From Methanolobus zinderi (GTDB taxonomy: Archaea > Halobacteriota > Methanosarcinia > Methanosarcinales > Methanosarcinaceae), in contig NZ_CP058215.1 of the NCBI RefSeq assembly GCF_013388255.1, forward strand, positions 496,001 to 560,000: a DNA stretch of 64,000 nt, in the 5' to 3' direction. The notes under the pieces were generated by a model, which ran no database searches, was not told the origin of the DNA, and worked only from the letters and a program-made list of their open reading frames with translations. This document shows, piece by piece, positions 51,285 through 58,116 of this stretch (within the stretch, counting starts at the first letter, position 1; each line of letters opens with the position of its first letter). Both the position numbers and the translations under genes were made by a program.

Positions 51285-54200
51285 TTGCGGGGTCATAGCA
51301 TCAGGGTCGATACAATAAATTCAAACATTGATTTTGTAAGTGACATGCCTCAGGGGAATTACTTTTCTCTTCTCTACGAGACCACTGAAGAATTCATGAG
51401 TGTGGTAGCAGCATTTCTGGATGCAGGTCTGAAAGAGAATGAATGCTGTATCTGGGCGGTTTCAGGACAGATCACCCGCGAGAGTGCTGAAAATTTCCTC
51501 AGGGACGAAGGTATTGATGTAGATTCTTATCTCCGGAGCGGCCAGCTAATAATAATGCCCTGTACGGAATGCTATATTGCAGATGAAGGTCCCGTATCCG
51601 AAAGAACCCTCAGGAAGTGGCAGGAAATACATGATACGGCTATTTCCGGTGGATTCAGCGGGCTCAGGATCGCTGATAAGTTCACGATAGTGGGTGAGGA
51701 CTCCTGGAAGAGATTCATGGAATTTGAGAAGAAGGGCATTGATATCATACGCAGGAAAAATATCATTGCTCTGTTCGCATTCCTCCTTGAGGCCCGTACA
51801 AGGTCCGAGATACTTGATATTATAGAGATGCATGACGGTACGGTAGTAAAACAAAAAGGTATATGGACCCTTCTCCAGAGTTCTTCCACATGCAAACCTC
51901 TTGTCAGTGAAAGACGCTTTCCTGAGAACATACTCGAGGATATATGGACCGGTGTCTGGGCTGTTGACAGGTACGACAGGATTGTATATTTCAATAAAGG
52001 TATGGAAGCGATCTCCGGTTTCTCAAAGGACGATGTTCTGGGACAAAAACTGGACAAGTTCGTACCAAGACAGGTAAATCAGGAGGAACTAAGCTTCATT
52101 GAGCTTTTTAACCTTGCAAAGGAAAACCTGCGTTCGAAAAGTTATGATATCTTCCCTTTCATAAAACCGGATGGTCAGTATGTCTATCACAGTGGGGTCC
52201 TGCTACCCCTGACCGATGAAAATGGCTCATACGCCGGGATGATCGGGACAGTTGGTAAGACCTCCCAGCAGGAGATAAGCCACAAGAAACTGAGAGACCA
52301 GTTCAAATCCATTGAAAGACTGGAAGAGATATACAAGAGAAGTCCGGTGGTTGCTGTTCTCTGGCGAGCGGAAAAAGACTGGCCAATAGAGTTCATATCC
52401 GAGAACATAGCTCAGTTCGGTTATATCCCTGAAAATTTCACATCCGGAGAGCTGACCTATGCGGATATTGTCCATCCTGATGATCTTGATATTGTAAAGA
52501 CTTCTGCTGAACAACTGGAGATCGAAGGGAAATTCTATTACTCAAAGGATTACCGCCTATTGACAAAGTCAGGAGAGCCGCGATGGGTGACCGAAAGGTC
52601 CTACCTTATAAGGGATGAGAACGGGGAGCCTGCCTACTATCAGGGTATAATAATAGATGTCACTGAGCGTAAACGTGCTGAAGAAAAACTTGTTAAGAGT
52701 GAAGCTCTTCTCACTGAGGTCAGCAGGATTGCCAAAATAGGAGGCTGGGAATTTGATGCATCAACTGGCAAGGGGACATGGACACCTGAAATTGCTAGAA
52801 TTCATGAATTAGACTCTTCAACACCTACAGATGTTGAATTTGGATTAAGTTTCTACCCCCCGGGGTCAAGAGAAATTATTGAAAAAGCTGTCCATGATGC
52901 TGTAGAAAAAGGCGAACCTTACGACATTGAATTGGAATTGATCACAGCTAAAGGTACACATAAATGGGTTAGGACTATCGGAAATCCAGTAACAAAAAAT
53001 GGTAAGGTCGTGAGTGTCACCGGAGCATTACAGGATATCACTGAACGCAAAAAAGCTGAAGAAGCTGCTCTTGAAAATGAAAAAAAATACCGCCTGATCT
53101 TCGAGAATTCTCCTCTTGGCATCTTTCATTTTAACGAAAAGGGCATGCTAACACACTGTAATGAGAAGTTCCTGGAAATAATGGGACTTAAGAAGAAAGA
53201 AGATATCATAGGTTTCAATCTGGTTGCTTCAATCGTAGATGAACAGATGAAAAAAGCAGTCAAAGATGTCTTTTCAAGGAAAATCGGACATTTTGAGGGT
53301 GAGTATCATACTGTTTCAACTGATATTACCGTCAATATCAAGGCTGATTACAGTCCGAATATAGCAGATGACGGTACTTTTCTTGGCGGAATTGGGGTAT
53401 TTGAAGATATATCTGAGCGTAAAAAAGCTGAAATAGCTGCTCTTGAAGCCGAAAAGAAATTCCGTCTTATATTCGAGAACTCTCCTCTGGGTATTTTCAA
53501 TTTCAATCAGAATGGAATGGTAACCCATTGTAATGAGAAGTTTTTACAAATTATAGGCCTGGAAGACAAAGAAGATATCATCGGCTTCAATATGGTCACA
53601 CAGATCAAAGACCCAAAGATGAAAAAGGCGATCAATGATGTTCTTTCAAGAAAGGCTGGTCACTTCGAGGGTGAGTATCATACAGTAATCAGTGGCAAAG
53701 AGGTCTTCATCAAGGCTGACTACAGCCCGAATATTGCGCACAATGGTACTTTCCTTGGTGGCATAGGTATTTTTGCAGATATCTCTGCCCGCAAAAAAGC
53801 TGAAGAGGCATTACGTCTTGACGAGTCCAGGCTTGAAACCCTTCTCAGGCTCAACCAGATGACAGATAAAACCTTCAAGGAAATAGCCGATTTCGTACAG
53901 GAAGAGGCCGTGAAACTGACACAGAGCAGGATGGGATATCTTGCCTTCCTTAATGAGAAAGGAACTGTACTGTCCATATATTCCTGGTCAAAGAACGTGA
54001 TGACGGATTGCAATGTGAAACAGGAGAAGAAGTTTGATTATCTTCTTGATTCCACCGGTCTGTGGGGAGAACCTGTCCGTCAGAAACATCCGATCATAGT
54101 CAACGATTACGAGGCTTCCAATAAGTTCAAACGTGGTTATCCTAAGGGTCATATAAAGATGAAACGCTATATGAGCGTTCCAATCATCGAAGGCGGAAAA

Positions 54201-56315: not shown

Positions 56316-56343
56316 CTCCGGCCCAATTGCCGGAGAATCTTTT
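56316..56343 (+). terminator. Hairpin terminator after the COG0523 gene
   Basis: CTCCGGC (56316-56322) and GCCGGAG (56329-56335) form a perfect 7-bp GC-rich stem with a 6-nt loop, followed by AATCTTTT. Confidence 0.7.
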
Positions 56344-56383
56344 CATCTTAAGGCATAAATAGGAGTTTCTCATTCTATTTTTC

Positions 56384-56932
56384 ATGAAACTGAACGCTGA
56401 AACCGAAGTAATGGAATCGCTCGCAAAGACAATACTTGTTGCTGCAAGGACCGCACCAAAGGGCAAGGGTATTGATGATATCGTAACCTGTATGCTGGAT
56501 GAAAGTGAGAAGAACGAACTTGCAGATAAGATGGAAGAGCTCAGCGAGATCAAAGGTTTGAAGTTCCTGATAAGGGATGCAAAGAATGTCAGGGATGCTG
56601 ATTCACTAATTCTCATCGGTTTGAAATCATCCGGTGCAAGTGGGCTCGACTGCGGAGCCTGTGGCTTTGAGACATGTAAGGAAATGCTTGATACTAAGAA
56701 GGTAAAAGTTGAGTTCACAGGCCCGCATTGCATGATCAAGTATATGGACCTTGGAATTGCAGTGGGATGTGCAGCTGCAAAAGCAAAGGACCTCTGTGTT
56801 GATAACCGTATTCTGTACAGTGCAGGAGCAGCAGCATGCTATTTTGATATGATGGATGCGGATGTTGCAATGGCTCTTCCGTTGAGTGTCAAAGGAAAGA
56901 ACATATTCTTTGATAGGTCGCCTAAAAAGTAG
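56384..56932 (+). CDS. DUF2148-type ferredoxin-domain protein
   Basis: 182 residues. A [4Fe-4S]-type cluster of cysteines CGACGFETC (Cys90, 93, 98) with Cys116 in GPHCMIKY; further DIAVG-like and MMDADVAMALPLS segments match the DUF2148 family, small redox or metal proteins of anaerobes with no fixed function. The stop is TAG, and the final codons are part of the first unit of the hairpin array at 56912. No clear SD before the ATG; probably leaderless. Confidence 0.82.
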   Translation: MKLNAETEVMESLAKTILVAARTAPKGKGIDDIVTCMLDESEKNELADKMEELSEIKGLKFLIRDAKNVRDADSLILIGLKSSGASGLDCGACGFETCKEMLDTKKVKVEFTGPHCMIKYMDLGIAVGCAAAKAKDLCVDNRILYSAGAAACYFDMMDADVAMALPLSVKGKNIFFDRSPKK

Positions 56933-57073
56933 GTGACCGTTAGACCTTCTAGGAACTAGAAGGTCGATAGACCATCTACAAGGTGAATGGTCGATGAGCC
57001 TTCTACGAAGTAGGCGGTCGACATGCCGTCTACAAGGTAGATAGTCGTTTGGACATCTGCGAAGTATGTGGCT
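56912..57073. repeat. Six tandem 27-bp units, each an imperfect palindrome (hairpin array)
   Basis: Units start at 56912, 56939, 56966, 56993, 57020 and 57047 and abut without spacers. Each has a 4-nt lead, then two 10-nt arms around a 3-nt loop, approximately GRCCNTCTAC and GTAGANGGYC. Eight to ten of ten possible pairs form in every unit (unit 56939 is perfect). The arms differ between units in a compensatory way: for example arm pair 3 is C-G in most but T-A in the first; pair 5 is T-A, A-T or G-T. The first unit includes the TAG stop of the DUF2148-type gene; the last ends 64 nt before the arsC-like gene. No T-run follows, so it is not a plain terminator. Confidence 0.85.
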
Positions 57074-57079
57074 GACAAT

Positions 57080-57093
57080 AGATTATATAATCT
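57080..57093 (+). promoter_or_regulatory. Palindromic TATA region of the arsenic genes
   Basis: AGATTATATAATCT is a perfect 14-bp palindrome containing a TATA-like core, 44 nt before the first arsC-like ATG. A factor bound here would compete with TBP. Confidence 0.5.
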
Positions 57094-57136
57094 CTATAGG
57101 TAAAGTTTATCTTTCCTGCTTTGGCACAATGAACTT

Positions 57137-57598
57137 ATGGCATCTAGTAGTGATAAGACAAAAGTACTGTTCATCTGCGTGCATAACAGTGGAAGGAGTC
57201 AGATAGCTGAGGAGTACTTAAAAAGGATTGGAGGGGACAGGTTTGAAGTTGAAAGTGCAGGATATAAACCAACCAGTCTGAATCCTTTTGTCCTGAAGGT
57301 TATGGAGGAGGAGGGATTTGATCTCAGCGAAAAGAAACCCCAGTCAGCATGGGATCTTTTCAAAGAAGGGAGGCATTTCAGGTATGTGATCACTGTATGT
57401 GACAGAGCACATGAAGAGGAATGTCCTTTGTTCTCAAAACCATTTGTTCAGTTAAACTGGCCTTTCCCGGATCCAGAATCCTTCACAGGTACTGATGACG
57501 AGAAACTGGAACAGGCACGTACTCTCAGGGATTCCATTAAGAAAAGAGTAGAAGAATTTGCTGAAGAAACAACATCCGATATTAAGGGAAATCACTGA
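57137..57598 (+). CDS. ArsC-like low-molecular-weight phosphatase family protein (1)
   Basis: 153 residues. P-loop CVHNSGRS (CX5R), the WPFPDPESF segment with the general-acid Asp, and VCDRAHEEECP with further cysteines, as in thioredoxin-coupled arsenate reductases. It reduces arsenate to arsenite, exported by Acr3 coded downstream. No SD, so leaderless expression from the palindromic promoter is likely. It is 20 nt before a second ArsC-like gene. Confidence 0.85.
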   Translation: MASSSDKTKVLFICVHNSGRSQIAEEYLKRIGGDRFEVESAGYKPTSLNPFVLKVMEEEGFDLSEKKPQSAWDLFKEGRHFRYVITVCDRAHEEECPLFSKPFVQLNWPFPDPESFTGTDDEKLEQARTLRDSIKKRVEEFAEETTSDIKGNH

Positions 57599-57618
57599 TC
57601 ATATCTCCAGGTGTTGTC

Positions 57619-58116
57619 ATGCAAAAGAATGTAAATGCAGTAGTAAGTCCAGAGCTGCAGGAAAAGAAAAAGGTCCTCTTTCTGTGCTATCACAACTCCG
57701 CAAGGTCTCAGATGGCCGAAGGTCTTCTAAGATCCATGTACGGTGACAGTTATGAAGTCTACAGTGCCGGTATCGAGGCTACAATTGTTGATCCACGGGC
57801 TATTAAGATTATGGAGGAGATTGGTATTGACATCTCCACCCACCGATCCAAAGCCACACAAGAATTTAAGGATACGGTATTTGATATTGCTATCACTGTC
57901 TGTGACCGGGCCAGGCAGAACTGCCCCGTCTGCAGCACGTCTCTTGAACTTCCTGATGAGCCGGCAAAAACTGTCGGGCAGCCTCAGGCAAAAGAAGTCA
58001 TTCACAAAAGCTTCAGGGACCCCGCCGATGCTGTCGGGTCAGAGGAAGAACAGCTTGAGGTTTTCCGGCATGTAAGGGATGAGATAAAAGACTGGCTATC
58101 TCTTACTTTTGCTTAG
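57619..58116 (+). CDS. ArsC-like low-molecular-weight phosphatase family protein (2)
   Basis: 165 residues. P-loop CYHNSARS, VCDRARQNCPVC with three cysteines near the middle, and FRDPADAVG with the general-acid Asp. It is a paralogue of the gene before it, with an N-terminal extension of about 17 residues. Two such proteins may act on different substrates or donors (one could be a true tyrosine phosphatase). The stop is TAG, backed by TAA two codons on. Confidence 0.85.
   Translation: MQKNVNAVVSPELQEKKKVLFLCYHNSARSQMAEGLLRSMYGDSYEVYSAGIEATIVDPRAIKIMEEIGIDISTHRSKATQEFKDTVFDIAITVCDRARQNCPVCSTSLELPDEPAKTVGQPQAKEVIHKSFRDPADAVGSEEEQLEVFRHVRDEIKDWLSLTFA

Follow-up and report, generated by a model that had tools for sequence, protein, structure and literature searches.

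In Methanolobus zinderi, the 3' end of a DUF2148 gene carries six abutting 27-nt hairpins, the first of which is built from the gene's own final codons, and comparable arrays with matched arm changes stand at the same gene end in most Methanolobus relatives. From the comparison of these loci, we tentatively propose, with a confidence that falls somewhat short of even, that the array is a cis-acting, Methanolobus-specific 3'UTR hairpin barrier protecting the 3' end of the DUF2148 mRNA. Archaeal 3' ends are generally attributed to U-tracts, and to our knowledge structured elements of archaeal 3'UTRs are little known. Our literature search, incomplete in coverage, turned up no paper naming DUF2148 and no account of tandem, covarying hairpins that extend from the stop codon of an archaeal gene. 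In about 27 related genomes, one orthologous gene shows how such an array arises, expands, undergoes compensatory change and is lost. With hairpin-free outgroups at hand, this is a natural series for asking whether archaeal mRNA is protected by 3' hairpins and whether RNA stems can be produced by template switching.

A hairpin array on the stop codon of a DUF2148 gene

The window, which is the whole 64,000-nt stretch of M. zinderi DNA analysed here, contains the array at positions 56912-57073, as six units of exactly 27 nt each without spacers (Table 1). Every unit follows the structure ....((((((((((...)))))))))), in which positions 5-14 pair with positions 18-27 around a three-base loop, leaving a 4-nt linker between hairpins. 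The preliminary description had reported six abutting units with 8-10 of 10 arm pairs, a first unit holding the gene's stop, no T-run behind the array, and no CRISPR; these observations proved correct, with the stop codon located in the 3' arm of unit 1 and the units both abutting and diverging. The folding energy of the array is -70.1 kcal/mol on the + strand (z -5.9) and -58.4 on the - strand (z -5.2). As genomic background, we used the window and a 400-kb sample of the same genome. A six-unit run with at least 7/9 pairs in one register occurs once in the window, at this array, and in 0 of 20 block shuffles, and the 400-kb sample contains no array with 3 units at >=26/27 pairs. Tandem Repeats Finder detected the array only in part (65% matches) because its units are strongly diverged.

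Table 1. Features of the array and its surroundings (window positions; pairs out of 10 with G-U counted; bits from covariance model R1)
Feature	Position	Strand	Details
TATA box TAAATA of DUF2148 gene	56356..56361	+	~25 nt before ATG
DUF2148 ferredoxin-domain protein gene, 182 aa	56384..56932	+	Pfam PF09918, E 3.4e-30; ORF; final codons make up the 5' arm of unit 1
Hairpin unit 1	56912..56938	+	9/10 pairs; 30.2 bits; includes TAG stop 56930-56932
Hairpin unit 2	56939..56965	+	10/10 pairs; 28.2 bits
Hairpin unit 3	56966..56992	+	9/10 pairs; 36.2 bits
Hairpin unit 4	56993..57019	+	8/10 pairs; 26.9 bits
Hairpin unit 5	57020..57046	+	8/10 pairs; 28.6 bits
Hairpin unit 6 (weakest)	57047..57073	+	8/10 pairs; 24.7 bits
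Dyad AGATTATATAATCT with TATA-like core	57080..57093	+	seen in sequence; outside array

The DUF2148 protein is 99% identical in Methanolobus sp. UBA118 and has orthologs in M. halotolerans, M. profundi and M. bombayensis. Nearly every one of 28 aligned DUF2148 genes has a TA(A/T)ATA motif at the same spacing from its ATG; with this conserved TATA box, the array would therefore fall in the gene's 3'UTR. Downstream, at least 6 different genes follow the array across relatives. In many genomes these are an LMWPc (arsC-like) gene or an SBF transporter, elsewhere argC (G003), an FwdE-like gene (G004, G013), a sensor-like gene (G020) or small exported proteins (G009, G012, G017, G018, G019), the product names being read from sequence except for the window's own Pfam matches. 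Since the downstream genes vary while the array stays with DUF2148, we assign it to the mRNA of that gene rather than to the ars genes, and reject the earlier suggestion of an RNA leading into the latter.

Several neighbouring features were noted. In the window, positions 57137-58116 contain two successive arsC-like genes of the LMW phosphatase type and, after them, an SBF-family transporter. The dyad AGATTATATAATCT is likely the promoter or operator of the first of them, because similar dyads precede the same LMWPc gene in relatives. Between a CobW-like gene and the DUF2148 promoter, a GC-rich hairpin (56316-56335, CTCCGG-CCCAATTG-CCGGAG, then AATCTTTTC) seems to form the 3' end of the preceding gene.

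The claim that no protein frame fits the array holds in the sense that no protein is encoded, but the frames are partly open, since 27 nt equals nine codons. On the + strand, RPST(K/R)-stop-x-V-D recurs in frame, and on the - strand a single stop interrupts an otherwise open frame. A protein-coding repeat was nevertheless rejected: the 27-nt period explains the frames, TGA and TAG alternate at the stop, and units of 26 and 28 nt in G016, G020 and G120 interrupt the repeat frame. Pyrrolysine read-through of TAG was likewise set aside, TGA standing at the same site in many relatives.

Occurrence and turnover of the array in Methanolobus

The DUF2148 gene is present in all 27 genomes of the genus, in G011 as a remnant only. 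The preliminary description had suggested seeding a covariance model with the six units and searching relatives; such a model (R2), for which only the window's six units were used, matched units at the DUF2148 3' end in most other loci, always on the same strand as the gene, so that most Methanolobus relatives carry them directly on the DUF2148 stop. A wider model (R1), for which most of the searched sequences were in the training set, placed units in 22 of the 27 genomes at E <=0.05, as well as in G118 and G120, two genomes from a different genus. In the relatives, the first unit starts in the last Asp codon and holds the stop (TAG or TGA) within its 3' arm. By contrast, orthologs in Methanosarcina and related genera have no hairpin, though their ending codons are similar (RESTRK, RPSTR).

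Within Methanolobus, the number of units ranges from 0 to 6 and varies even between sister genomes (2 units in G004 versus 1 in G013; 3 in G023 versus 1 in G025). The culturable M. profundi and M. bombayensis have 2-3 units. In G018, G023, G001 and G017, adjacent units match exactly or almost exactly, which shows tandem duplication; degenerate units tend to be the terminal ones, and the array was lost in G007, G022 and G024, the first of these also being without a nearby U-tract. Copy number has thus shifted as units were duplicated in tandem or decayed. The pattern is consistent with a single origin in Methanolobus, in which the sequence past the stop would have become complementary to the last codons, array size being altered thereafter. 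In G118 and G120 (loci L029 and L030), the DUF2148 gene and its array nest inside Methanolobus (p 0.0006 in an AU test of a clade restricted to Methanolobus), and gene and array therefore probably moved together into the other genus by horizontal transfer.

Each genome carries the array at one locus, which excludes a mobile or dispersed repeat. Enterobacterial REP elements are palindromic units of 3' regions, able to block 3'-to-5' exonucleases, and are dispersed genome-wide. The array resembles them as a set of palindromic 3'-region units, but its confinement to one locus, with none in the 400-kb sample, rules out REP or other dispersed palindromic repeats. Nor is it a CRISPR array, which would show near-identical repeats and unique spacers. 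An integrase/Xer attachment site is disfavoured by a search for a second locus at the far end of an inserted element, which gave no convincing one; candidate second sites in G018 (C19) and G004 (1565227) had chance-level scores among 27 genomes, the former lying within a coding region. Weak matches in other genera, such as one of 27.9 bits in G108, are expected by chance across 112 genomes. Rfam 15 gave no family at gathering score in the window and none up to E 5 in 56850-57140.

Two assemblies show peculiarities at this locus. In G010, the closest relative (L003), the assembly consists of N from within unit 2 onward, perhaps broken by the hairpins. In G014 (L004), a second short tandem repeat, AAGGACAGGT, is present in about 3 copies after the array, about 240-280 nt past the DUF2148 stop.

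Compensatory change between the arms

The preliminary description had noted that changes in one arm are matched in the other. Taken by themselves, the six window units give a modest signal, with 4 pairs altered in both arms versus 1.7 expected, but genus-wide it is strong. Across 46 distinct units, 86.7% of cells pair and 60 cells are double-changed compared with 20.7 expected, a count found in 0 of 500 shuffles; the covariation score of 0.455 (0.292 expected) was reached by no shuffle either. The signal disappeared when the partner was shifted by one base, and the closing pair 14-18 also covaries. The orthologous first units alone gave 27 double-changed cells versus 10.3. Because related sequences inflate double-change counts, we also ran a tree-aware simulation for unit 1, in which the two arms evolve independently along the gene tree and undergo equally many changes: it yielded 10.6 +/- 4.6 double-changed cells against 32 observed, a value reached in 0 of 1000 runs. 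Changes extend into the coding sequence. In G020, GGCCATCC...GAATGGCC is replaced by GACCACTC...GAGTGGTC, and G018 has GGGTGTCTA...TAGGCATCC; in both, the encoded protein tail is altered along with the pairing. The pair 11-21 is recurrently mismatched because a TGA stop fixes A at position 21, opposite the second base of a serine codon at position 11.

These results only partly agree with the initial reading of selection for structure in place of recent copying. Pairing is indeed maintained, by selection or another process, but the units did arise by tandem duplication, followed by divergence with pairing kept. The main rival to the barrier is that the array is a mutational by-product with little or no function, its arms being copied by template switching (quasi-palindrome correction) and its units duplicated by slippage, so that mutation itself would preserve pairing and copy number. 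Template switching creates and maintains hairpins through a reverse-complement copy, a mechanism documented for RNA stems in work on RNA genes (PMC8794818). The array is similar to those hairpins in that its linked changes would likewise stem from a reverse-complement copy and keep pairing, and differs in that a coding end seeds a tandem array. Template switching could produce part of the covariation without function. Several double changes fall on single branches (about 11 from WC to WC), G020 re-paired three positions together, including a Ser-to-Leu change, and the array is dispensable in some lineages and unequal in copy number in sister genomes. However, stepwise G-U routes are also seen (about 19 WC-to-GU and 8 GU-to-WC), A-C mismatches are rare within intact arrays, the arrays occupy one locus per genome though the mutation process acts genome-wide, and gene and array persisted following their probable transfer to another genus. 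We regard this explanation as doubtful, though it is the one that most deserves to be kept in mind beside the barrier.

A folding transcript is expected to tolerate G-U and to avoid A-C. In intact arrays, with pair 11-21 left out, we counted 24 G-U versus 5 A-C (ratio p ~0.07, A-C depletion p ~0.03), but this wobble asymmetry is only a trend: with pair 11-21 and decayed arrays included, there was no G-U/A-C asymmetry, and the wobble ratio favoured neither strand. Of the 22 non-tied arrays, 16 are more stable when folded as sense RNA (Wilcoxon p 0.016, kinship not corrected for). Better sense-strand folding and G-U tolerance in intact arrays are as expected for the transcribed strand, and selection on RNA rather than DNA is favoured, not proven.

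The same data bear on the protein-binding option listed in the preliminary description, in which the units would be DNA-level palindromic sites for a dimeric protein, such as a tyrosine recombinase or a regulator, or would form cruciforms. Each unit is a near-perfect inverted repeat with 9-10 bp arms round a short core, the units stand in tandem at a gene end, and the downstream neighbour genes were exchanged several times, all of which speaks for this option. By contrast, wide sequence divergence with symmetry kept suits structure over the recognition sequence of one protein, each genome has a single locus and lacks the second site that would bound an inserted element, and sense-strand RNA is the more stable in most arrays. 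We consider a DNA-binding array or cruciform unlikely, and, like the hairpin-cluster terminator discussed below, less well supported than the barrier and the by-product.

A possible barrier at the 3' end of the message

Of the three options initially offered, a 3' RNA stabiliser fits best. Where the array lies, how it folds and covaries, which lineages carry it, its copy-number turnover and the conserved promoter are established, whereas its transcription, its protection of the RNA end and the part played by redundancy are inferred. Transcription would start from the DUF2148 gene's own TATA box, pass through the stop codon and enter the row of 10-bp hairpins, which could hinder 3'-to-5' decay by the exosome or trap the 3' end, so defining and protecting the end of the message without a close U-tract terminator in this genome. 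Multiple units would form a redundant barrier, and a ribosome at the stop is predicted to open unit 1 and not the later units, a possible reason for having several. The archaeal exosome degrades single-stranded RNA from 3' to 5' (PMC7667871), and the genome has two RNase PH genes, as expected of an exosome core. The simplest mechanism would therefore be a redundant hairpin barrier that guards or sets the mRNA 3' end where no U-tract is present. Counting against this reading are the loss of the array in some genomes, including G007 with no U-tract nearby, the wobble ratio over all pairs, and the capacity of template switching to make hairpins that have no RNA function.

Archaeal transcripts usually end at U-tracts without hairpins (PMC8716108). 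The array would take the same position at the transcript 3' end as those terminators, a further point against the barrier being that they usually do without hairpins; in this genome, the array is not followed by a U-tract. An intrinsic terminator (hairpin and U-run) and an archaeal U-tract terminator (with 4-7 U where the transcript ends) were both rejected on the sequence behind the array, where the longest T run within 80 nt is 3 and the scanned stretch contains no T5+. Across the genus, a T5+ tract lies within about 60 nt in 8 of 12 genomes with 0-1 intact units versus 3 of 15 with at least 2 (Fisher p 0.022), a relation that is not tree-independent (6 independent pairs give about 0 in the same direction, 2 in the opposite one and 4 with no difference, too few differing for a test). 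The best reading is that the barrier would be used most where no U-tract terminator follows. A bolder version, in which a stop-codon-seeded, self-expanding array replaces the U-tract for 3'-end formation and copy number serves as an mRNA-stability dial, seems to us quite improbable.

Hairpin clusters near stop codons have been described in bacterial genes (PMC8355165) and, like the array, comprise several hairpins close to the stop, often without a U-run; the array differs in being archaeal, in its regular covarying 27-nt tandem units and in having the stop codon within the first stem. That it terminates transcription, as proposed for such bacterial clusters (within 80 nt of the stop, no U-run), is the least probable of the readings weighed here: hairpins do cluster at the stop codon with no U-tract here, and array and U-tract tend to be mutually exclusive, but archaeal RNA polymerase stops at U-tracts without strictly needing hairpins (PMC8716108), and a U-tract lies directly behind the arrays of G004, G015 and G023.

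Elsewhere in the window, a tandem 372-bp repeat (53034-53804, 2.1 copies, 75% matches) within a 1281-aa sensor kinase-like gene is apparently a duplicated sensor domain.
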